Shown piece after piece: positions 18,013 to 57,239 of a stretch of DNA of 64,000 nucleotides (position 1 is the stretch's first letter; each line of letters starts with the position of its first letter). The stretch comes from Rhizobium sp. Leaf371 (GTDB lineage Bacteria > Pseudomonadota > Alphaproteobacteria > Rhizobiales > Rhizobiaceae): assembly GCF_001424045.1 (NCBI RefSeq), contig NZ_LMQB01000025.1, positions 26,010 through 90,009 of the forward strand, given 5' to 3'. The position numbers and the translations under genes are program-made. The notes beneath the pieces are model-generated. The model was not told the DNA's origin. It searched no databases and worked only from the letters and a program-made list of their open reading frames with translations.

Positions 18013-20204
18013 GGTCTTGCTGCCTCCTTCTTGGCGGGAGTGGCTGCGTCCTTCGGCCCGCCGAGGCTTCGGAAGAAGTAGAAGAGACCGCGATTGGTTT
18101 GAAAGAGCGCGATCGCGAAGAAACTGATCGTGCCGCGAATGAGGCCGGGGTTGCGCCGTCGGCCCATCTGGAATTCGGTCCATTGTGCCGAGTTTGCAAA
18201 GATGATGTCGGCGAGCAGCCGGCGTTCTTCCGGTTCCCGCGGCGCGAACGTGCAGCCGACGAGCACGAAGCCATCGCCCCGTGCGCTACGGACGATCTTG
18301 ACCGGCATGGAGGACGGTGCGCCCGGACTGAACGTCTCGACGCGGATCTCCTCCATCGTCCCCTCCGTCAGCGGCTGCATGGAACGATCGTAGACATGGA
18401 CGAGAAGTCCATTGACCGAGACGTTCTCGATGATGCCCGGAAGCCACTGATCGCCGACCTTGAACTCGCATCGGCGCTTGACGTTGACCCGCCTGGACGA
18501 CGATTTTTCGCCGCGTTCGGACACCACGCCAAGGGCACAGCCGGCGAAGATGAGGTTGAGCAGGTTCCAGCCCGCGACGACCAGCGTCACGTCGGATTTA
18601 TACGGCTCGGCATAGATCTTGTAGAACGACATGGCGGTGGCGATGAGGAGCACGCCGAAGATGACGAAAAACGGCCGGCTGATCTCCGAAAGTCGATTGG
18701 TGCTGATCGACTCGTCCTTCGCCGTGACCTTGAAAGTGGGCTTTGACGGATTGAAGATCACCGAAATAACGGCCGGCAAGAGGTGTACGGTCTGCACATA
18801 CTCGTAGAGCTCGGAGATCCACGGCCAGCGGAAGCGACCGTAGAGATAGTTCTGCATGAGCAGGTTCACGAGCATGTAGGTGGTCGTATAGGCCAGGAAC
18901 TCGCCGCCGGAGCCGACGAAGATTTCCAGATCGAAGAAGATGTAGAACAGCGGGGCGAACAGGAAGACTGTGCGCGGAAACGGGAACAGCCAGAACAGCG
19001 TCGAGGACATGTAGCAAAGCCGCTGCGGCATGGAGAGGCCGCGCTTGAACAGCGGCATGCGGAACATGAGGATCTGCATCATGCCCTGCGCCCAGCGACT
19101 GCGCTGGCCGATGAAGCTTGCGAAGGTCGCCGGCTGGAGACCGGCGATCAGCGGCTTGTCGACATAGACGCTGTTCCAGCCGCGGGCGTGCAGCGCAAGC
19201 GCCGTCTCGCAGTCCTCGGTGATGCTGATGCCGCTGAAGCCGTTGGTGTCTTCGAGCGCACGCCGGTTGAGCACGGCCGCCGAGCCGCAGAAGAAGGCGG
19301 CGTTCCATTTATCCAGCCCGCGCTGGATGATGCCGTAGAACATTTCGTTCTCGCTCGGCATCTTGTTGAAGGTTTGCAGGTTCCGCTCGATCGGATCGGG
19401 ATTGAGGAAGAAGTGCGGCGTCTGAACGAGAAAGAGACGCGGATCCTCCTCGAAATAGCCGACCGTCTCGCGCAGGAAGTCGCGCGCCGGCGCATGGTCG
19501 GCATCGAAGACGGTGATCAGGTCGCCCTGGGAATGGCGCATGCCGTTGTTCAGATTGCCGGCCTTGGCATGTTCGTTGCGATCGCGCGTCAGGTAGTTCG
19601 CATCGAGGTTGCGGCAGAGTTCTTTCAACTCCTCGTGGCGGCGCTGGGCGGCCTGGCTGTCGGGAATGCTGGCCGCGTTCCGCTTCTGCAGCGTGCCGCC
19701 GTCGTCCAGAAGCCAGACGGTCAGCTTTTCCGGCGGATAGTCCATGTTCTTGGCAGCCGCGAGCGTATTGGCCAGCAGGTCGGCGTCCTCGTTATAGGTC
19801 GGGATGAAGACATCGACCGACGGCGCGTAATCCGGCGAGCCCGGGCGCGGCCTGTTCGGCGGAAGCGGCATGGAAACGATGAACAGGCTGAGGGCCAGCA
19901 TCGCCACGCTGTACATTTCCGCCAGGTAGAGCAGAAAGCCCGGAATGAAGTTCTCGAGCTGGTTGACGGGCGGCAGCGTGCTGGTGGTGCGCCAGTAGAC
20001 GTAGCGCAGCACGATGGCGGTTCCGAAACCGAGGCCGATGAGGCGCCAGTTGCCCTCCGCCTTTAGCATTTTCAGCACGGCGAGAAGCGCCATGCAGAGA
20101 AAGGCGGCAACCAGATGGGTCTGGAGGCTGACCGGCAGTGTCGTGATCGCCACGATGACGATCGACATGCAGATCCACGCGACGACGATAAGCGCCTTGG
20201 CCAT
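18009..20204 (-). CDS. bcsA: Cellulose synthase catalytic subunit BcsA
   Basis: A 731-residue processive GT2 enzyme making beta-1,4-glucan from UDP-glucose at the inner membrane. Residues visible: Asp168 in LLDDGG, FDADH (233-237), the catalytic base in TED (329-331) and QRSRW (367-371). Four membrane helices precede the GT domain and several follow it. The C-terminal PilZ region (about 560-660) should bind c-di-GMP, but its signature is degenerate: RRVNVKRR gives RxxxK rather than RxxxR, and NVSVNG has Asn594 where DxSxxG has Asp. ATG at 20204 begins the first membrane segment; the longer upstream reading is proline/arginine-rich and unlikely. Confidence 0.95.
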   Translation of the reverse strand: MAKALIVVAWICMSIVIVAITTLPVSLQTHLVAAFLCMALLAVLKMLKAEGNWRLIGLGFGTAIVLRYVYWRTTSTLPPVNQLENFIPGFLLYLAEMYSVAMLALSLFIVSMPLPPNRPRPGSPDYAPSVDVFIPTYNEDADLLANTLAAAKNMDYPPEKLTVWLLDDGGTLQKRNAASIPDSQAAQRRHEELKELCRNLDANYLTRDRNEHAKAGNLNNGMRHSQGDLITVFDADHAPARDFLRETVGYFEEDPRLFLVQTPHFFLNPDPIERNLQTFNKMPSENEMFYGIIQRGLDKWNAAFFCGSAAVLNRRALEDTNGFSGISITEDCETALALHARGWNSVYVDKPLIAGLQPATFASFIGQRSRWAQGMMQILMFRMPLFKRGLSMPQRLCYMSSTLFWLFPFPRTVFLFAPLFYIFFDLEIFVGSGGEFLAYTTTYMLVNLLMQNYLYGRFRWPWISELYEYVQTVHLLPAVISVIFNPSKPTFKVTAKDESISTNRLSEISRPFFVIFGVLLIATAMSFYKIYAEPYKSDVTLVVAGWNLLNLIFAGCALGVVSERGEKSSSRRVNVKRRCEFKVGDQWLPGIIENVSVNGLLVHVYDRSMQPLTEGTMEEIRVETFSPGAPSSMPVKIVRSARGDGFVLVGCTFAPREPEERRLLADIIFANSAQWTEFQMGRRRNPGLIRGTISFFAIALFQTNRGLFYFFRSLGGPKDAATPAKKEAARP

Positions 20205-46552: not shown

Positions 46553-47296
46553 TTACGCCTTCGGCCGGCCCGTCCACAAGGGAATGTTCAGATCGCAGGA
46601 GACCTGCGGATCGGCGGTGTATAAGGGCCGTCCTTCTGCCAGAAGCTGCTCGATGATGGTCTTGTCCATCTGCACGTGAGCCCGAGCGAGACCCGTCTGG
46701 TTGTAGGAATGTCCGGTCGAATTGGGATTGATGCCCGTGATGATGACCTGCGGCGCGCCGTGATAGAGAGCGAAGAGAACGGCATTCAGGCCGTTCGAGC
46801 ATTTGTCCTCAGTGCGCACCTCGGTATTCTTGCGGCCTGTTATTTCTTCGAATAGCGACATTCGCTCATAGCGGTCGATGATTGTGAGATCGTCATAACT
46901 GTAACCGAAGGCCTTCAGTCCATCCACCAGCCTCTGGCGCTTGTTCTTGCGCCAGAGCAGGACATAGAGGCTGCGCGTCCGCTGACCGGAGAGAACGCGG
47001 CGGACCTCCACCGCATTGGCGGAGGTACCCTCGACCTGGTTGAACATCATGAAGCTGATGTCGGGCACGTCGATCCCCCAGCCGCGTATGGCGGACTGCG
47101 AACCATTGATCGTCATGACGCTGAAATCCGCGTCCCAGCCTTCCGGCTTGTAGATCAACGGCGCGGAGCCGACCACGACCACGGGCCCCCTGAAGACATG
47201 GCTGGAGGCTGGCGGGAGAGGGCGGTTCAGCCGATATTTCAGCGACCTGTGGAGGCGCTGGCGGGTCTGCGTGAGCCATTTTTTGACGGTCGTCAT
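46553..47296 (-). CDS. Sialyltransferase-fold-like glycan protein (GT42-like), copy 1
   Basis: A 247-residue cytosolic protein. VVVVGSAPLIYKPEGWDADF looks like a nucleotide-sugar-binding first strand. After a block of charged residues comes SNGLNAVLFALYHGAPQVIITGINPNSTGHSYNQ, which resembles the SGVYMCAIALGYKEIYLxGIDF core of CMP-sialic-acid transferases. The proteins encoded at 47333-48166 and 52213-52914 share this layout. It is the second gene of a two-gene unit. The catalytic role and donor are not proven; a non-enzymatic or different-sugar function is possible. Start at 47296. Confidence 0.55.
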   Translation of the reverse strand: MTTVKKWLTQTRQRLHRSLKYRLNRPLPPASSHVFRGPVVVVGSAPLIYKPEGWDADFSVMTINGSQSAIRGWGIDVPDISFMMFNQVEGTSANAVEVRRVLSGQRTRSLYVLLWRKNKRQRLVDGLKAFGYSYDDLTIIDRYERMSLFEEITGRKNTEVRTEDKCSNGLNAVLFALYHGAPQVIITGINPNSTGHSYNQTGLARAHVQMDKTIIEQLLAEGRPLYTADPQVSCDLNIPLWTGRPKA

Positions 47297-47332
47297 CGAA
47301 GCACCTTCATGCTGCTTGCCACGCAAGGTGCG

Positions 47333-48166
47333 TCATCGCTTCTTCAGGAAGCCAGGTTTGAGGTTGCGCAGAAAAACATCGGCGGACTTCAAGATGCCCG
47401 TCAGGGAGATCAGTTTGTCCACCTGTGCATCGGTATTTCCCATGCGTTGCGAGAGGACGTCGGCAACCGTAAGAGAAATTTCGGTGGCCGGAATGTCCGG
47501 AAAACGCGCGGAAAGCTTTGCATAGGGATCGGACAGGTCCGTCTCGTGAAGGGAAAGCTTGCCGGATCTTGCAAAAACCTTGAGGCACACCTGCTCGAAA
47601 GCCCAATCGTGGATGGCCACGACACGCCATTTCTCGCTTCTCTTGCCGGAAAATCCCGCCAGCACGACCTTCAGCGGCAAGCGTTGCGCCAGCAGCCAAT
47701 AGGCAAGCGCAAAGCCCGACGTCGGAAGCTTGTCCGACGGATAGATGCCGTCGCCCAACGATGTCAGGTCGAGATGACCGGTTGCCGTGCCACCATAATC
47801 GGCCTGCGTATTGGGCGTTTCGCTGTCGGCGAGACGCATGTTCAAAATGCCGTGGAACGTTTCGGGGGCGAAGAGACCAAGCACCTGCTCGACCTCGCCG
47901 CGATAGACGATGTTTGCACCGCGCGGCTGCGCGCGGGAAACGAGCATGGATTGGCCGGCGAAGGGCTTTTGCAGAACCTTGTAGGCCTTGTTGAAAAAGA
48001 TGAAGAGGGAATCATCCGGATAGGCCCGCTTGAGCGCGGCGACATCGACCTGCTCGCTGTTGGCGACCAGAACGACCTGGGGAAAGCGTGAGAAGAACGC
48101 CCGCCAGTCCTGTTCGGTTACCAAGCCGGACGTCGTCTTGATGTCTCTATCCTCGGGAAAGTCCAT
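47333..48166 (-). CDS. Sialyltransferase-fold-like glycan protein (GT42-like), copy 2
   Basis: 277 residues. VVLVANSEQVDVAALKRAYPDD opens a Rossmann-like first half, SLFIFFNKAYKVLQ follows, and SGFALAYWLLAQRLPLKVVLAGFSG with a nearby His (VAIHDWAFEQ) parallels the second half of GT42-type sialyltransferases. It precedes copy 1 by 36 bp in the same direction, so they are probably co-transcribed. Sequence identity to copies 1 and 3 is low outside that core. Function is inferred only from layout and the surrounding glycosyltransferases. Confidence 0.5.
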   Translation of the reverse strand: MDFPEDRDIKTTSGLVTEQDWRAFFSRFPQVVLVANSEQVDVAALKRAYPDDSLFIFFNKAYKVLQKPFAGQSMLVSRAQPRGANIVYRGEVEQVLGLFAPETFHGILNMRLADSETPNTQADYGGTATGHLDLTSLGDGIYPSDKLPTSGFALAYWLLAQRLPLKVVLAGFSGKRSEKWRVVAIHDWAFEQVCLKVFARSGKLSLHETDLSDPYAKLSARFPDIPATEISLTVADVLSQRMGNTDAQVDKLISLTGILKSADVFLRNLKPGFLKKR

Positions 48167-48314
48167 AAATCATACCGCTTTCAGACGATATCCGGTGAAA
48201 CTCCGTTCATCGGAACTGACGCTGTTGAACGATGACCCGCAAAGATAGTAAGGCCATGTGAACGCGGTCGGCGTAAGGCTCGGCCCCGCTCTATCGTTAT
48301 CGGGTTCTTACAAT

Positions 48315-49259
48315 ATGTTCGGATGGAAGAGCAAACGGAGTTTCACGCGGGAGCTCGTCATAACGCCGCCAGATCCACTGGCCGGTCGTCATGGCATCTC
48401 CATCGTGGCCTGCGTCAAGAATGAAGCACCCTATATCGAGGAATGGGTCCGTTTTCACAGATCGATCGGCGTCCGCCACTTTCATATCTATGACGACGGC
48501 TCGACGGACGGCACGATGGACACGCTGCGGTCGCTTCTGTCTGCGGAATTCCTGACGATCGTTCCCTGGGTCATGCGCATGCGCGACCAGGCGACGTCGG
48601 TGGTTCTGAACGGCCAAGCCATCGCTTTCGCGCACGCTCTCCTCAATTTCGGTGGCGCATACGACTGGATGGCCTTCATCGATGTGGACGAGTTCCTCTT
48701 GCCGCGACGCGACCGAACGCTGGGGGAAGCGCTGAGGCACGCGAAGGGTTTTCCAAATATCTCGCTGCCCTGGCACATGTTCGGGCATGGTGGCCATCGG
48801 TTACGCCCCGCCGAGCCCGTCTGTCTCAGCTACACGATGCGTGTGGCCCACCCGAAACGTCAGGACGGGAATGCGAGCAACTTCAAATGCATCGTCGATC
48901 CGACGCGCGTGACAGGTGTCAGTGTCCATCGCTTCTGCACCAAGGATTTCGGCGATCGGACGTCGAACGATGCCGGCCTGGTCGCGTCCGTGCGGGATCG
49001 AAAGGCAGAGGCTTTCTTTTCGGCGCAGTATCTGCAGCTCAACCACTACTATCTGAAGTCGGAGCAGGAGCTTGCCGAGAAGGTGGCGCGCGGCTGGTCA
49101 TTCGACGACACTGCCGCAAAATATCGTCAGAAGGTCGCCGAGACCGCGCGCTCTATCGAACGCGACGTCATCGAGGATCGCGGCATGGCCATTTTCATCG
49201 CGCAGAACAAGATCGATCTCGGACAGTCCGTGATCCCCGTTGCCGGAGCAGAGACATGA
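48315..49259 (+). CDS. GT2/GT92-like glycosyltransferase (DUF23 type)
   Basis: A 314-residue glycosyltransferase. ISIVACVKNEAPYIEEWVRFHRSIGVRHFHIYDDGSTDGT is the donor-binding start, and WMAFIDVDEFLLPRR carries the DxD-type metal motif typical of Glyco_tranf_2_4/GT92 enzymes. A downstream NHYYLKS is also family-like. ATG at 48315 starts a natural N-terminus; a GTG at 48258 is possible. The stop overlaps the start of the ELM1-family gene by four bases. Confidence 0.85.
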   Translation: MFGWKSKRSFTRELVITPPDPLAGRHGISIVACVKNEAPYIEEWVRFHRSIGVRHFHIYDDGSTDGTMDTLRSLLSAEFLTIVPWVMRMRDQATSVVLNGQAIAFAHALLNFGGAYDWMAFIDVDEFLLPRRDRTLGEALRHAKGFPNISLPWHMFGHGGHRLRPAEPVCLSYTMRVAHPKRQDGNASNFKCIVDPTRVTGVSVHRFCTKDFGDRTSNDAGLVASVRDRKAEAFFSAQYLQLNHYYLKSEQELAEKVARGWSFDDTAAKYRQKVAETARSIERDVIEDRGMAIFIAQNKIDLGQSVIPVAGAET

Positions 49260-50272
49260 CCGGACATCCTGATCGTCCGAGCGGCCTTCGGCGCGCTCCC
49301 AAAGGCTGGGCTGTCACCGAGGAAAAGGCGGGTACGCTGACGCAATGCCTCGGCATCGCCAAGCAGATCGACCCAGCGCCCGTCATCAAGATCGTGACGA
49401 AGCCGCGCGGCTGGCGGAAATGGTTCAAGCCGCGGCTGTTCTCGACACGCGAACAGGAGCCCACCTTCATCGTCTCCTGCGGCTTTCGCGCGGAGGAGCC
49501 GGTTCTTGCCATCAAGAGCGCGTTCGGCGGCCGTCCGTTCGCGGTGCACCTGCAGCGACCGCGTGTTGATGGCTACGATCTCGTCTTCATTTCCCGACAT
49601 GACTGGGTGCCGGAACTGGACGGGATCGACCATGTGCGGCAGATGGTCGGCGTACCCCACCAGATCACGCCGGACAGACTGGCGGCACATGCCGGCAGCA
49701 GGTCGCAATATGCCGGTCCTGCCGACCGGGTCGCGGCCGTCTTTCTCGGCGGGTCGAATGGTGCCTATGTCTATGACGCTGCGTGTCATTTGACGATCGA
49801 AAATGCCGTGCGGGATCTCGAGGCTGCCGGTTGGAAGATCGTGATTTCCGTCTCGCGACGGTCGAGCGCGGAGACGCTGCAGGCCGCCTTGACGCTGCGG
49901 TCCGGCAATGTGACCGTCTGGGATCGGACGGGGGACAACCCCTATCTCGACTTCATGGCCGCTGCCGATGCGTTCCTGATCGCCAAGGACTCGATCACCA
50001 TGCCTTGTGAAGCGCTCGTGACGGGCAAGCCGGTCTATACGCTCGATCTCACGCACGTGCCCGGGGAGCGGCTTTTAAAGTTCGAGACCTATCATACCGA
50101 CCTCCGCGAAACCCTGAAGCTGACCAAAGCCTTCGACGGCGACCTTGCGCCCTATGTCTACGAGCCGCTGAACGAAACAGCGCGTATCGGCACCATCGTT
50201 GCGGAAGCGCTGGCCGACCGGCAGCAGAGCGGTCCGCGCGGAGTTACGGTCAGCGTGAAGCGGCAGATCTGA
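49256..50272 (+). CDS. ELM1-family (DUF1022) glycosyltransferase-like protein
   Basis: A 338-residue protein of the family that includes plant mitochondrial fission ELM1 and bacterial GT-B-like proteins. Phrases: GWAVTEEKAGTLTQCLGIAKQI, FIVSCGFRAEEPVLAIKSAFGGR, VAAVFLGGSNGAYVYD, and DSITMPCEALVTGKPVYTLDL, which resembles the donor-binding end of GT-B enzymes. Bacterial members lie in cell-surface glycan loci. It is translationally coupled to the upstream glycosyltransferase. Confidence 0.8.
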   Translation: MTGHPDRPSGLRRAPKGWAVTEEKAGTLTQCLGIAKQIDPAPVIKIVTKPRGWRKWFKPRLFSTREQEPTFIVSCGFRAEEPVLAIKSAFGGRPFAVHLQRPRVDGYDLVFISRHDWVPELDGIDHVRQMVGVPHQITPDRLAAHAGSRSQYAGPADRVAAVFLGGSNGAYVYDAACHLTIENAVRDLEAAGWKIVISVSRRSSAETLQAALTLRSGNVTVWDRTGDNPYLDFMAAADAFLIAKDSITMPCEALVTGKPVYTLDLTHVPGERLLKFETYHTDLRETLKLTKAFDGDLAPYVYEPLNETARIGTIVAEALADRQQSGPRGVTVSVKRQI

Positions 50273-50303
50273 GCGCACGCCGTTTCGCCCGGCTCTGGTT
50301 TGC

Positions 50304-51143
50304 CTATTCCCGCCAATGGTCGCCGACCCAAAGCGTCGGCTTGATGTAGTGACGCAGGTCGCTGAAGACGGAATGTCTGCGTTCTCGGCCGGTGATCACG
50401 TTCATGAAATAGGTTGCGGGCGCCGTTGCGACCTGCTTGCCTCCGTATTTTCCTTCCAAGGCATGCTGGGGCAGCAGGCCACGCGGAAAGATGACGACGC
50501 GGGCCGACTTCGGCAGCTTGGGCGGCAAGAAATAGTTCAGCGGAAAGGGCCGGCGGCAATCCTGGCGGAAATGCAGAACCCAGCGTCTGGGATAGAATTT
50601 AACGCCACCCGGTGCGTTCTTTGTGACGAAGCGCTGCTCGTACCGATACTTGTCCGCAACCTTTTGTGGATCGGCACGAAATTTCTCCTGGATCGGCACC
50701 AGCTTGCCGACGGGAAAACGAAACAGCGACGTTTGACCCAGGCGTTCGAACGGCGTGGTCTGGTTTTTGGCCATGACCACATCGTCCGGTTCGCCGACGG
50801 TGAAGAAGTCGTCGAGCGACGAGACGATCACCAGATCGAGATCCAGAAACAGCACGGTGCCTTTGAGTTTCCCCAGCGTGGCGCCCCAAAGACGCGCCTT
50901 CGGCCAGATCCCGCGGGAATTGACCGGCATCACCACATCGAGTTCGGGAAGATCCTCGCACAAGACCTCCGGCCGGATGCCGTCACGGTTGTCGGTGAAA
51001 CATGTGAACGTGAAGGGCGGCGTAATATTCCGCTGCACCATGGCGTAGAGCCTGTTGATGAAGGGAGGGCCGTATTTCGTGCCCCAATTGATGCAGATGA
51101 TCTGCTTCACGCCACCGCTTGCGTCTAATATTTTCGACATCAT
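50304..51143 (-). CDS. DxD glycosyltransferase (GT8-like)
   Basis: A 279-residue GT-A-type transferase. IICINWGTKYGPPFINRLYAMV begins the donor fold, and TVLFLDLDLVIVSSLDDFF carries the DxD metal/UDP-sugar motif. WVLHFRQDCRRPFP is a likely acceptor loop. It has no signal or membrane segment. The donor and acceptor are unknown. The gene converges with the ELM1-family gene and continues the glycan cluster. Confidence 0.8.
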   Translation of the reverse strand: MMSKILDASGGVKQIICINWGTKYGPPFINRLYAMVQRNITPPFTFTCFTDNRDGIRPEVLCEDLPELDVVMPVNSRGIWPKARLWGATLGKLKGTVLFLDLDLVIVSSLDDFFTVGEPDDVVMAKNQTTPFERLGQTSLFRFPVGKLVPIQEKFRADPQKVADKYRYEQRFVTKNAPGGVKFYPRRWVLHFRQDCRRPFPLNYFLPPKLPKSARVVIFPRGLLPQHALEGKYGGKQVATAPATYFMNVITGRERRHSVFSDLRHYIKPTLWVGDHWRE

Positions 51144-51310
51144 GTTTCGGCCCCTTACGGCGCTCGCCCTTACGGGTCTCAGAGCAGCTCACGCTCCACT
51201 CCCTACAACAATTGTACTCTCGCTTTAAGGGGGAAGATGAACGCACGAGGCATCGGCAGCCAGACCGAGACACGCGGCAAGCCGCAATCGCGGCTGCCGC
51301 GTGGGGCCGA

Positions 51311-51994
51311 TCAGCGCTGCTGGACGTGGAGCATGCGCTCGCGCGTGGCGAACCACTCTTCCGAATAGTCGTCATTCTTGTATTCTTCGAAATACGGGCC
51401 ACCGTCCGTGAAATGCACGAGGGATGCATCCTCACTGCGCTCGTATTCATTGACCAACCAGTTCCAGGCTGGCGGCAATTCGCCGATAAGCTCTTCCGAT
51501 TCCAGCCATTTGAACTGGTGAAGCTCCAGACCCGTTGCCGTGTTGACGTAGTCAAGGTCGAGCTTGCGGCACTTGGCGTTGTTGAACAGGATCACGCTCG
51601 ACCAGTTCTTCTTCTCGTACTTCGTCTGGACCTGACCGAGGAACTTCGTTTCGACCTTCGGAACATAGTTGTGCTTGACGCACATGGCTGCGTAACGATC
51701 TTCTTTCACCTCCCACAGCTTGGCGATGTCGGTGCGCATGAGCATGTCGCAATCGGCAAAGAGCGACCAGCCTTCGTAATTGCTTAGGTAAGGCACGAGG
51801 AAGCGCGAGAAAGAAAATTCCGTCGACTGCAGCGCATTGCGCTCGCGTGTGAAGATGTTGCTGACATTGCTCAGCACGATCGGCGTAAATTTGACGGGGA
51901 TGGAGCTCTTCTCAAGAATGCTCTGGCAAAGAACGTGATACGCGGCGACTTCCTTGGTATCGAAACCGATGAAGACATTGGCAATTTCGGTCAT
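51311..51994 (-). CDS. DxD glycosyltransferase (GT8-like)
   Basis: A 227-residue protein. VFIGFDTKEVAAYHVLCQSIL is the strand that precedes the donor site in GT8-like enzymes, and SLFADCDMLMRTDI contains a DCD metal motif. A tail rich in acidic and aromatic residues (HFTDGGPYFEEYKNDDYSEEW) may form the acceptor site. ATG at 51994 follows GAGAGAG. Same strand as the neighbouring DxD transferase, with a 167-bp gap. It resembles a sugar transferase acting on surface polysaccharide. Confidence 0.78.
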   Translation of the reverse strand: MTEIANVFIGFDTKEVAAYHVLCQSILEKSSIPVKFTPIVLSNVSNIFTRERNALQSTEFSFSRFLVPYLSNYEGWSLFADCDMLMRTDIAKLWEVKEDRYAAMCVKHNYVPKVETKFLGQVQTKYEKKNWSSVILFNNAKCRKLDLDYVNTATGLELHQFKWLESEELIGELPPAWNWLVNEYERSEDASLVHFTDGGPYFEEYKNDDYSEEWFATRERMLHVQQR

Positions 51995-52212
51995 ATCTCT
52001 CTCATTCCTCAGGTGCGTTTCCCATCGCTGCGGGGCGCGTCGTCTGGTCGATGCCGGCGGGTCCCATGGCGCAATCTCATGCAGGCCGCTCGTCCCCTTG
52101 AGGAATCCGCCGCGCGACATGGTTCGTCGTGGCTATCTTTATCGGATATCAGCGGTTTTCGTAAGCTGCAACCCTATGAAGGATCACGACAGCGCAACGG
52201 TCCGGCACGGTT

Positions 52213-52914
52213 TCAGGCTTCGCGATCGGTCATGGACGCGTCTCGAATGTCTTCGAGGCGCGAAACGTGGCGGATGCCGATGGACGCAGACAAACCCTCT
52301 TCCGTCGTGAAGACATCGGGGCGCTCCCGGAGTTTCGACAGGACATACGCGTCTTCGGCAATCTGGCGCCGCGTGTTGCCATTCTCGTTGTAGGAGTGGC
52401 CCATGACGGTGAGCGAGAAGCCCGCCAGCGTGACGGAAGGCACGCCCATGAAGAGCGCGTAGCAAAGGGCCGCGACGCCATTCGTGACGTGGCCGGTTTC
52501 GCCGATGTCCTTTGGCATGCCGCCGCACATGTGCTCGACGATCGCCTCACGCTCCTCCTTGGTGGCACGCATGAGGCTTCGGTAGCGAACACTGGGTTTC
52601 ATGAGTAACTTCAGGTGCATGACCCAGAGCGGACGGGTATGGAGCCATAGAAGGCCGCGCGTGCGAACATCGGGATGTTCCTCCCAGGACTTCTTGCGCT
52701 TTCGAAACGTCAGGTCCGCCGCGGGGAGCCCGAGCATGTTGGCCGTCTTGCCGGCATTGTTCACGTCCATTCGGGCGCAGTGCGCGACGATGTCAGACGG
52801 CAGCGTCGGGTTGGGTGCGGACCCCAGCACGAGCCATGGCCGATCGAGAATCTCGAGCTTCGCAAGCCACCGGCGGTGGGTCTCTCTCAATGCCTGCAAC
52901 TCTTGCTTCTTCAT
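52213..52914 (-). CDS. Sialyltransferase-fold-like glycan protein (GT42-like), copy 3
   Basis: 233 residues. WLVLGSAPNPTLPSDI begins the fold, and TNGVAALCYALFMGVPSVTLAGFSLTVMGHSYNENG closely parallels copy 1 (GLNAVLFALYHGAPQVIITGINPNSTGHSYNQ). The shared GHSYN is likely a catalytic or ligand-binding block. Start at 52914. The function is unassigned, but it belongs to the same family as copy 1 and lies in the same glycan cluster. Confidence 0.55.
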   Translation of the reverse strand: MKKQELQALRETHRRWLAKLEILDRPWLVLGSAPNPTLPSDIVAHCARMDVNNAGKTANMLGLPAADLTFRKRKKSWEEHPDVRTRGLLWLHTRPLWVMHLKLLMKPSVRYRSLMRATKEEREAIVEHMCGGMPKDIGETGHVTNGVAALCYALFMGVPSVTLAGFSLTVMGHSYNENGNTRRQIAEDAYVLSKLRERPDVFTTEEGLSASIGIRHVSRLEDIRDASMTDREA

Positions 52915-53194
52915 CTCGCCGTCCCGGGAAGCGGTGAACCGTCCGACGGGCACCACGATAAAGTCTCATTTTACGGCTTTTCCCTCTGCGGGCGTCGGCC
53001 GGATCTGTCGTGAGTAACGCACAGATAGGACCGATATGCCCCGGACAGGTCAGGATGTCATGCCGTTTTTGTAAGCGAGTAGCGACAACAGGGCGTCCGA
53101 GAGCTAATCGAAGGACTGCGGTCTCAGCGAGAACCGCTTTTTTACTTTCTTCTGCACAAGACGACGTACAGAGTCTGGGATAGGGAATCAGCCC

Positions 53195-55288
53195 ATGGCC
53201 GCTTCGGCTGGATCGAAACATGTCATAGGCGCGAAGCATATCGATTATCGCCCCGACCTCGATGGTTTGCGTGCGCTTGCCATTCTGCCGGTTCTTCTTT
53301 TCCATGCCGATGTCGCGCTGTTCCGCGGTGGCTTCGTCGGGGTCGATGTGTTCTTCGTCCTCTCGGGCTACTTCATGGCGAAGATCATCCTGTCGGATCT
53401 CGAGGCGGGAACATTCTCCTTTCCAGCCTTCTATATCCGCCGAATCCGGCGGATCATTCCCGCGCTGTTCGCGATGATGGCAATCACGGCCGTCTTTGCC
53501 TGGTTCCGTCTGATGCCGCAGGAGTTCCGCTATTTCGGCGACAGCGTGCGAGCCGCCGCACTGTTCTCGGCCAATGTTCTCTTCCGCCAGGAAAGTGGCT
53601 ATTTCGACATTTCGGCCGAAATGAAGCCGCTGCTGCACACATGGTCCCTGTCCATGGAGGAGCAGTTCTACATCCTGTTTCCGATCTCGCTGTTCCTCGC
53701 CTTCACCTTCGCCCGGCGGTTCATCCTGCACATCACGGGTGGTCTCATCCTGATCTCGTTCGGTGCCTGCCTTTGGGCGACGAGCCATTCCCCGGAAAAG
53801 GCGTTCTTCCTTCTGCATTTCCGCGTCTGGGAATTGTTGATCGGTGCACTGGTCGCCTTCGCACCACGGCCGAACTACAGCGAGCGGGTGGCGGCTCTCC
53901 TCAGCACCGTGGGCCTTTCGGCGATCCTGGCCGCGATCTTCCTCTATTCCTCCGCGACGCCTTTTCCCGGGCCTTTTGCTGCTGTTCCGGTGCTGGGCGC
54001 AGCCCTCGTGATCCATGCCCGGTCAACGCGCTGGTTTCCCGCCCGCTTCCTCACCCATGGCGCGTCTCTCTTCATCGGCCGCATCTCCTATTCGCTCTAT
54101 CTCTGGCACTGGCCGATCATCGTGTTTTATCGCTACGAGACCGGCCACCACCTGACACTCACCGACAGTCTGATGGTCGTCGTCCTGTCCTTCATTTGTG
54201 CAACGCTGTCGTGGCGGTTCATCGAGCAGCCTGCCCGCACCGCCGCAGTCTTCCGGTCGCGCGGTCTCGTCCTGTCGCTGCTGGGAACGACAATGGCCGC
54301 GGCCGCGACGTTCGGCTTCGTCGTGACACGGTATGAGGGTATTCCTGAGCGCCTGCCTGCTGATGTCTATTCGATCTATTCTGCGACTTATGACCAGAGC
54401 CCCTTCTTTGCACCGAACTGCTTCACCGATACCGATGGTCAGGGATTGCAGACGCAAGCCATCCGGGACGGTGCTGTCTGCCCGATGGGCGCTGCCGCGA
54501 CAGGGGCGCCGCGCTTCATTGTCTGGGGGGACTCTCATGCGGCGGCAATAGCGCCGGCCATCGATGCAGCCGCGCGCAAGGCAGGCATCTCCGGTCTTTT
54601 CGTTGCGCGGGCCTCCTGTCCGCCTCTCCCTGACGCTGTCTTCGGGCCAGAGCGCGTCGTCAATCGCTGCCGTGAGACCTTGGCGGCGACTTTCGGCCTG
54701 ATCGAGCAGAAAAAGATCCCCTATGTCTTCATGGTCGGTTACTGGCCGAAATATGTTCACCGTACCGAACTGCCCGGGGAAGGCGTCTTCTTCAACACAT
54801 CCGAACCGCTGTCTCTACCTGACTGGTCGGCGCCGGTTCGCGACAGCCTGAAGGCGACCATCGATGCGTTTGCGCAGCAGGGCACGCGAGCGATCCTTGT
54901 TCAGGATGTACCCGAAATGGGCGTGAAGGTGCCGGAAGCGCTGGCGCGTGCGAAAATGACCGACGAAAATGTCGATTTCAGCCTGCCCCTCAGCTACACG
55001 CTGCAGCGGCAGAGGCTGGCGCGCGACATGCTGTTCGGGCTTGCGCGGGAAACGGGATCTTCGATTGTCGATCCTTTCGCGTTGCTCTGCGACGCGACGC
55101 GATGCCATCCGGTTGCCAATGGCGGCATCCTCTATCGCGACAGCGATCATCTCTCCCTGACCGGCGCGAGATTCCTGTCGCCACTCTTCGACGAGACGAT
55201 GGCGATGATCGCCAAACCGCCGGGCGAGACATCTCAGCCTTCGGGGGATCGCTGGAGCATGGCGGTGCCGGAGACGCAGCGCCGATGA
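53195..55288 (+). CDS. Acyltransferase-3 protein with SGNH domain (OafA-like)
   Basis: A 697-residue membrane protein. Residues 15-about 350 form the Acyl_transf_3 module with about ten helices (YRPDLDGLRALAILPVLLFH, FFVLSGYFM, LLHTWSLSMEEQFY). The C-terminal part is an SGNH/GDSL-like domain with VWGDSHAA (nucleophile Ser) and DSDHLSLTG (catalytic His). This two-part design O-acetylates surface polysaccharides, taking acetyl groups through the membrane and placing them outside. The cluster around it suggests that a glycan assembled nearby is the acceptor. Confidence 0.9.
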   Translation: MAASAGSKHVIGAKHIDYRPDLDGLRALAILPVLLFHADVALFRGGFVGVDVFFVLSGYFMAKIILSDLEAGTFSFPAFYIRRIRRIIPALFAMMAITAVFAWFRLMPQEFRYFGDSVRAAALFSANVLFRQESGYFDISAEMKPLLHTWSLSMEEQFYILFPISLFLAFTFARRFILHITGGLILISFGACLWATSHSPEKAFFLLHFRVWELLIGALVAFAPRPNYSERVAALLSTVGLSAILAAIFLYSSATPFPGPFAAVPVLGAALVIHARSTRWFPARFLTHGASLFIGRISYSLYLWHWPIIVFYRYETGHHLTLTDSLMVVVLSFICATLSWRFIEQPARTAAVFRSRGLVLSLLGTTMAAAATFGFVVTRYEGIPERLPADVYSIYSATYDQSPFFAPNCFTDTDGQGLQTQAIRDGAVCPMGAAATGAPRFIVWGDSHAAAIAPAIDAAARKAGISGLFVARASCPPLPDAVFGPERVVNRCRETLAATFGLIEQKKIPYVFMVGYWPKYVHRTELPGEGVFFNTSEPLSLPDWSAPVRDSLKATIDAFAQQGTRAILVQDVPEMGVKVPEALARAKMTDENVDFSLPLSYTLQRQRLARDMLFGLARETGSSIVDPFALLCDATRCHPVANGGILYRDSDHLSLTGARFLSPLFDETMAMIAKPPGETSQPSGDRWSMAVPETQRR

Positions 55289-55342: not shown

Positions 55343-56731
55343 TCAGGCGACGGCGCTGAGCCGCGATGCCTGAGTCTGGCCCGGGGCAGTCTGCGCCGCG
55401 CCCGCGTCGTCGCGATGCGCGGCATTCAGGCAGCGGGCGACCAGGTCGTGATGGATCCAGCGCACGGGACCGGCGGGCGCTGAGGTTGCGCCGAAGATGA
55501 GCCGGCCGGTTGCCTCCACCACCAGCGTACTCAGGAGATCGCTGATCAATTCCTTGCCGTCGCGGTGCATGGCGGTGATGTCGTTGGAGGTACCGATCGT
55601 CAGATCCGCCTGGGCCTGGCTGTTGGGCATCGGCCAGGCGCTGAAATCATAGAACGGCACCATGACGGCGCTCGCCTGCAGATCCTTGATCCGGCTTAGC
55701 ACATCGGTCACCGAGTGGCCGTCGGCCAGCAGAGCTTCGCAGGCCTGCCACTGTCCGTCCGCCCAACGGCCGCCATTCTCACGCTTCAAGGCCAGCAGAA
55801 GCGGGATCAGGGGAAGCTCGATGCCGGTGAAGACGTCGGAAGAATTGGTGCGGATTTCAGGGCAGTTGTAGACGGTCGCCGTCACGCCGGCGTCCCACGC
55901 TTCCGATGCGATGGCCTCAAGCCGCATCTTGGCGTAGCCCTGCGTATAGTTCGTGTAGGTCTGCCAGCGATACGCGTCGCCGATGAGAATGCCGGTCCCG
56001 TGATAGCCGTAGGCGGTATAGCGCACGGAACTGCCCGAGGCTTCCACCCGCGTGCGGATCGCGGCGCTTGCATCGATCAGATGACGGAAGGTGTTGGCCG
56101 AGACTTCATCGAAGTTCTGGAGGATCAGCTTGCCCATGTCGCTGTCGAGCAGGGTCTGCGACGACATGTGGCGGGCGCCGGTACCCTTGTAGATCCTGTT
56201 GGCGACGACGAGCAGGACCTTGGCCTTCGGAATGCCGCCAGCCATCGTGTGCGCGAAGAAGACGTTGCGCCCCTCCGGAATCATGCCGTCGAGAACTGCC
56301 ATGACCTGCGCCAGCGCCGTCTCGAACCGGTTCGTCGCAATCGCCTTGCAAGTCTCGATATGATCCCAGTCGATCTTTGCGTCCTGCCACGTCTGAAGCG
56401 TGAGGTCCGCCAGAAGATCTGTCGGTGTCGGGCCACCCTCCGGGCCGTCGAGATCGAAGCCGGCCATCAGCGGCACGTTGATGATCGTGCCGCCCAGCCG
56501 CGCCTCGGCCGCCGAAAGCTCGTCTGGGGTGAGCGGACGCAGCGCATTGTTTTCATCGCGACGGCCAACCGTGATGCCGACGATCTGCATACCGACCTTG
56601 CGGGCCTGATCGAGAAGGCCTGTCGCATATCCGCGGCCGAACAACTCGCCGAAGAGAACGAAGATGTCGCCCTTCCGAAACAGCGTGTTGCCGGCGATGC
56701 TTTCCAGTGCGATCGGGTTTTCCATGGTCAT
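55343..56731 (-). CDS. Enoyl-ACP reductase FabMG-family protein
   Basis: A 462-residue protein that I recognise as the family labelled enoyl-ACP reductase FabMG. Phrases: FRKGDIFVLFGELFGRGYATGLLDQARKVG, ITVGRRDENNALRPLTPDEL, HTMAGGIPKAKVLLVVANRIYKGTG, and TYTNYTQGYAKMRLEAIASEAW. A Rossmann-like N-terminus is followed by a Tyr/Lys-rich catalytic part; the two residues cannot be fixed without alignment. It would act in fatty-acid or polyketide reduction in the cytosol. A long leader region lies upstream and it converges with the acyltransferase gene. ATG at 56731 is preferred. Confidence 0.72.
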   Translation of the reverse strand: MTMENPIALESIAGNTLFRKGDIFVLFGELFGRGYATGLLDQARKVGMQIVGITVGRRDENNALRPLTPDELSAAEARLGGTIINVPLMAGFDLDGPEGGPTPTDLLADLTLQTWQDAKIDWDHIETCKAIATNRFETALAQVMAVLDGMIPEGRNVFFAHTMAGGIPKAKVLLVVANRIYKGTGARHMSSQTLLDSDMGKLILQNFDEVSANTFRHLIDASAAIRTRVEASGSSVRYTAYGYHGTGILIGDAYRWQTYTNYTQGYAKMRLEAIASEAWDAGVTATVYNCPEIRTNSSDVFTGIELPLIPLLLALKRENGGRWADGQWQACEALLADGHSVTDVLSRIKDLQASAVMVPFYDFSAWPMPNSQAQADLTIGTSNDITAMHRDGKELISDLLSTLVVEATGRLIFGATSAPAGPVRWIHHDLVARCLNAAHRDDAGAAQTAPGQTQASRLSAVA

Positions 56732-57239
56732 GTCTTCAGGTCGTGGGTCGTTGCGCGCAGGTCGCAACAGTCGTTGATCATCACATGAACGGAGTTCGCC
56801 GCAATGGAAAGTCATTTAACGTGACGGATTATATCGAAACGTGAACCGCATGCGGCATTGACGATGGCGATCGTCGCGCGCGTCAGCGTCTTCGGTCTGC
56901 CGAAAGTGCGGGATCAACCGAGAGTGGGCTGCGAACGAGCCGGCGGCACCCTTTGGCACCCGAGAGTGCCGCCAGGTGCAGCAGGCATCTTCAAAAGCCG
57001 GTGTGCACGGTATGATGGTAATGACCGTGTTTTGGCGACTCCTATATTTCGGGTCCGTATATCGGAAGCGCATGAGATAGATCTTACGCCCAACGGAGGA
57101 TTGCTATAGGCGAAATTAGGCCGTTATTTTCGAATATACATGTTTTAAGAAGAACGGATATACAGAATTTAGACTTGTAGATTATTGAATTTTTCTTCCG
57201 GAGGCCAATCTCATTCTTTTCACGACGATGGAGGGCGAT
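56732..57239. other. Long divergent intergenic region, AT-rich on the right
   Basis: 508 bp between divergent genes. The left half contains an 8-bp inverted repeat, GGCGGCAC (56942-56949) and GTGCCGCC (56966-56973). The right part (57080-57200) is notably AT-rich against a high-GC genome and runs up to GGAGGG before the small gene at 57240. It is a probable promoter and control region for both directions. No credible coding sequence was found. Confidence 0.6.

Follow-up and report, generated by a model that had tools for sequence, protein, structure and literature searches.

Predicted Sialyltransferase-fold Proteins in a Rhizobium Gene Cluster Homologous to the Sinorhizobium pSymB Kdo-capsule Locus

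RESULTS

The Eight-gene Cluster

In the window, a stretch of 64,000 nucleotides from the genome of Rhizobium sp. Leaf371, eight open genes on both strands all lie inside positions 46,553–55,288 (Table 1), as the first-pass annotation had described. Its account of their content also stands in large part: DxD motifs are present in P5 and P6, the GT92-like gene is coupled to the ELM1 gene, with the start of P4 overlapping the stop of P3 (ATGA), P8 carries the Acyl_transf_3 and SGNH domains of a predicted O-acyltransferase, and none of the eight proteins has a Pfam match to a Wzx, Wzy, or ABC-exporter family. It should be noted that P1, P2, P5, and P7 have no Pfam family match above the cut-off, that the GT8 match of P6 is borderline (24.6 bits, where the cut-off is 24.3), that the match of P8 in NCBIfam is below the cut-off, and that the name GtrOC1 for P4 comes from the annotated pSymB record. 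On the basis of its domains, P8 is predicted to be a probable glycan O-acylating enzyme. The start given for P7 is the ATG that fits its orthologs, a GTG at 52,956 being a possible alternative.

Table 1. Features of the cluster (positions in the window)
Feature	Positions	Strand	Description	Basis
P1	46553..47296	-	247-aa protein, predicted GT42 fold, in one family with P7	S. meliloti ortholog, presumably SMb20804
P1 core	46700..46798	-	SNG...GIN...GHSYN, residues 167-199	Motif in alignment A2
P2	47333..48166	-	277-aa protein, GT29/GT42-type fold	Predicted structure
P2 core	47594..47722	-	TSGF...GF...HDWAFE, residues 149-191	Resembles sialylmotifs S and VS
P3	48315..49259	+	GT92/GT2-like glycosyltransferase	PF01697, E 2e-34; PF13704, 3e-19
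P4	49256..50272	+	ELM1 (GtrOC1-type) putative glycosyltransferase	PF06258, E 2e-63
P5	50304..51143	-	DxD protein without Pfam family	S. meliloti ortholog annotated "glycosyl transferase"
P6	51311..51994	-	GT8-like glycosyltransferase	PF01501, E 2e-5
P7	52213..52914	-	Second member of the P1 family	BLAST to P1, 3e-15; alignment A1
P7 core	52387..52485	-	TNG...GFS...GHSYN	Motif
P8	53195..55288	+	Fusion of an AT3 acyltransferase and an SGNH domain	PF01757, 9e-32; PF19040, 4e-52

P1 is present in five of six other genomes of the same genus, and the five loci were used for comparison of the neighborhood. The full eight-gene set is found together in four of them, at 78–98% identity, and is divided between two contigs in the fifth (G003). 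Since the set is kept across these loci, the co-conservation of the cluster exceeds chance by far. The best conserved of the eight proteins is P6, with 95–98% identity in the genus and 84–87% in the loci L041–L048, which comprise seven Sinorhizobium or Ensifer loci and one from a Rhizobiales isolate.

Predicted Folds of P1, P7, and P2

P1 and P7 are homologous by sequence. In the 53-member alignment of their family (A2), GH.Y[ND] is present in all 53 rows and [ST]NG in 52, and His196 of P1 is invariant. All 19 Foldseek matches of the predicted P1 structure at E ≤ 0.001 are sialyltransferase chains, which argues strongly for a GT42 fold in P1, as predicted; the same fold is assigned to P7 through its homology to P1. 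Sequence searches gave no comparable signal: with E-values as high as 1 allowed, none of the 53 members matches a Pfam sialyltransferase family (the strongest match to any other family is at E 0.013), and neither phmmer with P1 nor the family profile gave a significant match among PDB sequences. The top two matches of the latter search were an antibody chain, at E 1, and then Cst-II, at E 1.6; the non-significant alignment with Cst-II places the P1 core on positions 120–164 of the Cst-II chain and the GH.Y block on 159–162. His188 is described as the "likely" catalytic base of Cst-II (PMC4202792).

P2 belongs to a separate family, of predicted GT29/GT42-type fold. The pattern TSGF...GF...HDxxxE occurs in all 24 members aligned (A3), and the core resembles sialylmotifs S and VS, a VS-type HxxxxE following motif S in the family. 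GT29 enzymes are reported to contain motifs L, S, III, and VS (PMC5811610). Among the 24 members there is no Pfam sialyltransferase match at E-values as high as 1, and the top match to another family, at E 0.035, is unconvincing; searches of PDB sequences with phmmer and with the family profile gave nothing significant for P2. The Foldseek matches of its predicted structure are weak (E 2.6e-3, TM 0.36–0.40), with sialyltransferases best and the GT29 fold among them, and give moderate support to a predicted sialyltransferase-type fold. P2 shows no relation to P1 and P7 in BLAST (E 0.15 and 39) or in comparison with the P1/P7 family profiles (hhalign probability 0.1), so that the predicted fold is its one link to them. 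The first-pass annotation had proposed three GT42-like proteins with a common SNG/TNG...GHSYN core; this holds for P1 and P7, but a single three-member GHSYN family was rejected because P2 lacks GHSYN and any sequence relation to the others. Structure prediction supports the suggested sialyltransferase fold itself, more strongly in P1 than in P2.

The Counterpart on Sinorhizobium pSymB

Orthologs of P1 to P8 are all found in one locus in L117 and in each of L041–L048. The pSymB replicons of S. meliloti strains 1021 and ml21 both carry the eight genes together, the 1021 orthologs having 57–86% identity. In S. meliloti, an effect on the capsular polysaccharide (KPS), described as a homopolymer of Kdo with β-(2-7) linkage in strain 1021, is reported for rkpA, kdsB2, smb20804, and smb20805 (PMC5539429), and Muller, Forsberg & Keating (2009) is cited for the pSymB Kdo-KPS genes kdsB2, SMb20804, and SMb20805 (PMC5539429, PMC4881576). 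A host-peptide phenotype, sensitivity to NCR247, is also reported in this bacterial group (PMC5539429). The annotated pSymB record places the orthologs of P2 and P1 side by side with a fourth protein, of GT42/Maf-like appearance. From gene order and record annotation, by which the SMb numbers were assigned since the 1021 entry lacks gene features, we infer that kdsB2 is the P2 ortholog, smb20804 the P1 ortholog, and smb20805 the gene of the fourth sialyltransferase-like protein. The Sinorhizobium P2 ortholog is labeled CMP-Kdo synthetase or "3-deoxy-manno-octulosonate cytidylyltransferase" in public records; since a profile search of 1021 pSymB gave no match to PF02348, the pSymB "kdsB2" should be P2. 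On pSymB a gene for KpsF, an isomerase type of the Kdo pathway, lies between P7 and P8.

By these sequence comparisons the cluster is a previously known kind of locus, the counterpart of the Sinorhizobium pSymB Kdo-capsule locus. The first-pass proposal, that the cluster decorates an existing glycan in an undescribed manner, is not supported in that form, since the eight genes make up this conserved pSymB locus and a KPS effect is reported for genes that appear to belong to the set.

With the A4 profile of the fourth protein, a Maf glycosyltransferase ranked first among PDB sequences (E 0.0045), with GT42 chains at 0.21–0.56. Its relation to the P1 family profile is weak (P 0.005, probability 7%), and profile comparison with P2 gave none. 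A 45% homolog is encoded in the Leaf371 genome outside the cluster, in an LPS-core-like region, where it lies among GT2 and GT4 genes of LPS-core type and a gene that by eye is GreA-like.

Capsule and Kdo Genes Elsewhere and Co-occurrence

Outside the cluster, the Leaf371 genome encodes KdsA, Capsule_synth proteins, a KpsM-like protein, and KdsB, the last of which matches NF003948 at E 4e-111 over a 213-aa part. An rkp-1-like row (L133), for which we use rkp gene names by presumed analogy, consists of aminotransferase, SDR, sulfatase-type, and Capsule_synth genes and then KpsF, and before it lies a frame of 1634 aa that by eye looks PKS/FAS-like. This KpsF, a 74% homolog of that of pSymB, adjoins the rkpJ-type gene. 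The lack of an exporter in the cluster fits the location of capsule-type export genes elsewhere in the genome. PF02348 has one match that is KdsB and another, weak, that is GlmU by eye, which leaves KdsB as the one evident CMP-ulosonate synthetase of the genome; exactly one match below 1e-20 was found in 17 of 20 related genomes.

Among 199 genomes of the family, P2 and the Capsule_synth family PF05159 co-occur in 17 (9.8 expected; p 0.007, a value that, like the other p values, is too good since the genomes share kinship). P1/P7-type proteins co-occur with PF05159 in 17 genomes (7.6 expected) and with P2 in 20 (6.2 expected); for strong P1 the counts are 12/17 (4.2 expected) and 11/17 (3.4 expected), respectively. 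PF05159 is missing, however, from 23 of the 40 genomes with P2 and from 14 of the 31 with P1/P7-type proteins. A strong RkpJ homolog is present in 12 of 12 genomes with the full or nearly full cluster, which represent few lineages, and in 2 of 8 P1-alone genomes; PF05159 is missing in four of these eight, which were hand-picked as having P1 without the other seven genes in the fetched stretch, and those genes may lie elsewhere.

DISCUSSION

The reading that we favor, and consider somewhat probable, is that the cluster is the counterpart of the pSymB K antigen (KPS) locus and encodes CMP-Kdo transferases for a Kdo-containing capsule. P1, P7, and P2 would act in the cytoplasm, each using CMP-Kdo as the donor to add Kdo to a growing lipid-linked glycan. 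On this reading P2, the likely "kdsB2" of Sinorhizobium, is probably a transferase rather than a CMP-Kdo synthetase. The GT92, ELM1, GT8, and P5 enzymes would build or extend a non-Kdo part (a linker, cap, or side chain), P8 would acylate the glycan, and export would use an rkp/kps ABC route encoded elsewhere, hence the cluster would need no exporter of its own. Several observations stand against this scheme. GT42 and GT29 enzymes are reported to be inverting (PMC4202792, PMC5811610) and would yield α-Kdo from CMP-β-Kdo, whereas the 1021 polymer is reported to be β-linked and β-Kdo transferases are described as retaining enzymes with a modified GT-B fold (PMC12887879); P1 and P2 therefore may not make the β chain itself. 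A Kdo homopolymer has no need of GT92, GT8, ELM1, or P5, the P1 and P2 families are also found in genomes without Capsule_synth genes, and the Foldseek matches of P2 are weak. No enzyme assay, fold, or activity assignment for the cluster proteins was found in the literature searched, which for the most part excluded subscription papers.

It is unlikely, although the best of the alternatives, that the enzymes decorate the core or O chain of LPS, with the Kdo-capsule effect of S. meliloti being secondary or confined to that species. The frequent occurrence of the P1 family without the other genes, also in genomes without PF05159, is in keeping with this, as are the R. tropici locus L072, in which P1 is alone beside a glycerol-kinase-like gene (by eye), the position of the 45% homolog of the fourth protein among LPS-core-type genes, and RL3439 lpcB, for which a role as CMP-Kdo transferase in the LPS core is stated (PMC11103875). 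A role in LPS accounts less well for the RkpJ homolog in all full or nearly full-set genomes, few as the lineages are, for the kpsF type in the pSymB locus and beside the rkpJ-type gene in Leaf371, and for the KPS effect reported for genes that appear to belong to the locus (PMC5539429). More doubtful still is the use of a donor other than CMP-Kdo by the sialyltransferase-fold proteins, with the cluster building an unrelated heteropolysaccharide; the uniformly sialyltransferase matches of P1, KdsB as the sole evident CMP-ulosonate synthetase, and the S. meliloti KPS effect (PMC5539429) all argue against it. The record annotation of its orthologs would make P2 a true CMP-Kdo synthetase, the second of its kind (KdsB2); this reading is very improbable and was rejected, because P2 matches no Pfam or NCBIfam family, PF02348 and the NCBIfam KdsB included, 1021 pSymB has no PF02348 match, the predicted fold is closest to sialyltransferases, and the Leaf371 genome encodes a separate KdsB.

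With CMP-Kdo transfer for a capsule as the preferred function, the locus offers small candidate Kdo transferases of predicted fold in a group with a reported Kdo-capsule effect, it suggests that a pSymB gene annotated as a CMP-Kdo synthetase is probably a transferase, and the inverting folds and the β-linked polymer are in sharp, testable conflict. According to PMC12887879 (2026), the enzymes responsible for Kdo in the capsule variable region had gone uninvestigated to date. We suggest, tentatively and with less assurance than for the capsule assignment, that P1/P7, P2, and the fourth protein of Sinorhizobium may represent new glycosyltransferase families of GT42/GT29 fold that use CMP-Kdo and evolved apart from the retaining GT99, GT107, and GT140. 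In that case either rhizobial KPS contains α-Kdo that earlier work missed, or a retaining transfer of Kdo is carried out by one of these folds.

Comparison with the pSymB locus shows that all eight genes are common to both, but that the fourth GT42/Maf-like protein, a PMT_2 protein, and kpsF of pSymB are missing from the Leaf371 cluster, whose genome also has the rkp-1-like row. P1 shares a predicted fold with the GT42 enzymes Cst-I and Cst-II at 10–16% identity but has no Pfam match; similarly, P2 shares a predicted fold and a VS-like motif with GT29 sialyltransferases but has no Pfam sialyltransferase match. Sialyltransferase-like proteins have also been suggested to move Kdo in plants, as GT29-like Kdo/Dha transferases of RG-II (PMC3522684); these candidates are Golgi proteins, and the parallel with P1 and P2 is one of idea. 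The retaining Kdo transferases GT99 (WbbB), GT107 (KpsC), and GT140 (KrkA) use the donor, CMP-Kdo, that is proposed for P1, P2, and P7, but are described as having a modified GT-B fold and a double displacement mechanism (PMC12887879), whereas the structures closest to P1 and P2 are those of GT42 and GT29.

RESULTS

The eight genes in the cluster, P1 to P8, belong to a 5.09-Mb genome of 29 contigs whose nearest named relatives are Ferranicluibacter rubi, Rhizobium sp. PP-CC-3A-592, Rhizobium sp. NFR03, and a Rhizobiales isolate, and we take its genus to be Ferranicluibacter. The cluster has a G+C content of 59.6%, as opposed to 63.9% in the remaining window, with the lowest value in P6 (53.7%); P3 and P4 are joined by an ATGA overlap. 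Pfam gives no match for P2, P5, or P7 and a single match below the cut-off for P1 (E 0.16), and NCBIfam matches P8 alone, also below the cut-off. The sialyltransferase-like enzymes of the cluster fit no Pfam family.

Features of the cluster and of related loci
Feature	Location	Strand	Description
P1, P2, P5, P7	window, within 46553-55288	minus	
P3	window, within 46553-55288	plus	GT92 (Pfam)
P4	window, within 46553-55288	plus	ELM1 (Pfam)
P6	window, within 46553-55288	minus	GT8, borderline (Pfam)
P8	window, within 46553-55288	plus	acyltransferase and SGNH (Pfam)
Adjoining gene, outside cluster	window, 55343-56815	minus	enoyl-ACP reductase family FabMG match (PF22046, E 1e-218)
Gene row	L133, window's genome		large PKS/FAS-like frame (by eye), then aminotransferase, SDR, sulfatase-type, Capsule_synth
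KpsF	L133, after Capsule_synth gene		74% identical to pSymB KpsF
Gene group	L131, 9190-15317		GT8-Capsule_synth fusion, KpsM-like protein, KdsA, second KpsF
303-aa protein	L135, 8476-9384 (window's genome, contig C1)		homolog (45%) of the fourth, 301-aa S. meliloti sialyltransferase-like protein
Eight orthologs	S. meliloti 1021 pSymB (L117), about 585-598 kb		together
301-aa protein	pSymB, adjoins P1 ortholog		weak MptE-like match, E 0.001, below cut-off
PMT_2 protein; polysaccharide pyruvyl transferase	pSymB, among or beside the eight orthologs		
KpsF	pSymB, between P7 and P8 orthologs		
P2 ortholog	L118 (CP140937.1), 19038-19868		named as cytidylyltransferase
P8 acyltransferase, two nearby copies	Ensifer aridi L042, 16471 and 19483		second runs past stretch end

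The first-pass annotation had credited three proteins with a common core. For P1 and P7 this is borne out by homology (25% over 211 residues, E 3e-15) and by SNG/TNG followed by GHSYN in both; in a 53-member alignment (the window's P1 and P7 with hand-chosen rows from the P1/P7 matches, many near-duplicates being omitted), GH.Y[ND] is present in all members and [ST]NG in 52. P2, however, lacks GHSYN and detectable homology to P1 or P7 and has its own core, TSGF...GF...HDxxxE, in 24/24 members of its alignment (the window's P2 and 23 of 24 P2 matches, that of L039 being omitted). The claimed family of three proteins is therefore two families.

P1 is present in the window's genome and in five of six other genomes of the genus, four of these five having all eight genes together. 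In genome G003, the fifth, the cluster is in two pieces, P1-P6 inside one contig and P7-P8 inside another (L019, L024), neither near a contig end; P6 and P7 have been separated by a rearrangement. Genome contigs scanned with a P1/P7-family alignment (A1, one conserved peptide pattern) gave 111 relatives, the best 80 being retained. Among these best 80 of 111 stretches, P1-P8 are complete in 11, namely L041-L048, mostly from Sinorhizobium/Ensifer, and L037-L039, which are from the window's genus and the same genomes as three of the same-genus set; six of the eight genes are seen in L040, from the genome of G003, and 24 of the 80 have a P2 homolog. Smaller sets occur in other genera: R. subbaraonis (L059), for example, has P1-P3-P6-P2, and many Rhizobium have P1 alone. 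In the betaproteobacterium Pigmentiphaga, three loci (L049, L051, L056) have adjacent P1 and P6 homologs (58-74% identity) and, nearby, a distant (about 27%) homolog of the 301-aa protein; the P1 and P6 set suggests transfer between classes.

On pSymB, about 13 kb past P8, an ABC2 membrane protein is encoded together with a pair of Capsule_synth proteins, of which one has a fused GT2-type domain. In CP140937, an annotated sister record, three neighboring genes carry the names "3-deoxy-manno-octulosonate cytidylyltransferase" (P2 ortholog), "membrane-anchored protein" (P1 ortholog), and "glycosyl transferase" (301-aa protein). The first name recurs in other public records; P2 has no match to KdsB models, and, judged from sequence, the name is probably a copied misannotation.

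On pSymB the kpsF gene is inside the cluster, and the same type adjoins an rkpJ-type gene in the window's genome, where the Capsule_synth protein of L133 has a KpsS match below the NCBIfam cut-off. L131, whose KpsM-like protein is above the cut-off in Pfam but below it in NCBIfam, is a second Kdo/capsule region, and L132 and L134 contain more Capsule_synth proteins. A strong homolog of the L133 RkpJ (E below 1e-180) is present in 12/12 genomes with the full or near-full cluster; in eight hand-picked genomes with P1 alone within the fetched locus, two homologs are at about 1e-160, one is weak (6e-52), and five genomes have none. PF05159 is present in all 12 of the former but in four of the eight latter. 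Because the 12 genomes belong to few lineages, this co-occurrence is support, not proof. Around the 303-aa protein of L135 are genes of the GT2 and GT4 families and, by eye, a GreA-like gene, a setting resembling that of LPS-core regions; this protein may be an LpcB-type Kdo transferase.

DISCUSSION

Sialyltransferases use CMP-sugars and, to our knowledge, the synthetases of CMP-Kdo and of the common CMP-nonulosonates all belong to PF02348. Two matches to this family occur in the window's genome; the strong one is KdsB by NCBIfam (E 4e-111 over a part of 213 aa) and the weak one (8e-5), ahead of a GlmS-like gene, is GlmU by eye. Of 20 named genomes that carry P1, among them 12 in which the cluster is full or near-full, 17 have a single match below 1e-20, the exceptions being G233 (S. 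meliloti 4H41), G235, and G239. CMP-Kdo is therefore the only donor evident from gene content in most of these genomes.

One study describes rkpA, kdsB2, smb20804, and smb20805 as genes that affect the K antigen capsule (KPS) of S. meliloti 1021 and whose mutation gives higher competitiveness under the plant peptide NCR247 (PMC5539429); the KPS is given there as a β-(2-7)-linked Kdo homopolymer, and Muller 2009 is cited. Because the genes of the P2 ortholog, the P1 ortholog, and the 301-aa protein directly follow one another and no KdsB-family match occurs on pSymB, we infer that kdsB2 is the P2 ortholog, SMb20804 the P1 ortholog, and SMb20805 the 301-aa protein; a chromosomal kdsB2 would weaken this mapping.

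In the mechanism that we propose, P1, P7, and P2 would attach Kdo, with CMP-Kdo as the donor, to a lipid-linked chain, the remaining transferases would build its non-Kdo part, P8 would acylate it, and the product would be exported by the rkp/kps route. The main difficulty is stereochemistry, since inverting sialyltransferase folds should give α-Kdo, whereas the 1021 polymer is reported to be β, and the β-Kdo enzymes described in PMC12887879 are retaining and of another fold. The Capsule_synth proteins may therefore make the β chain, with P1, P7, and P2 placing a first, last, or branching Kdo; alternatively, the reported β linkage or the assumed inverting mechanism may fail to hold. Members of the P1 and P2 families are also encoded in genomes lacking PF05159, which suggests roles in other glycans as well, perhaps in LPS.

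The literature found, seen in part, assigns no activity to these sialyltransferase-like enzymes, which are promising candidates for novel families of Kdo transferases. The cluster itself is of a known kind, the Sinorhizobium K antigen locus, here in another genus.
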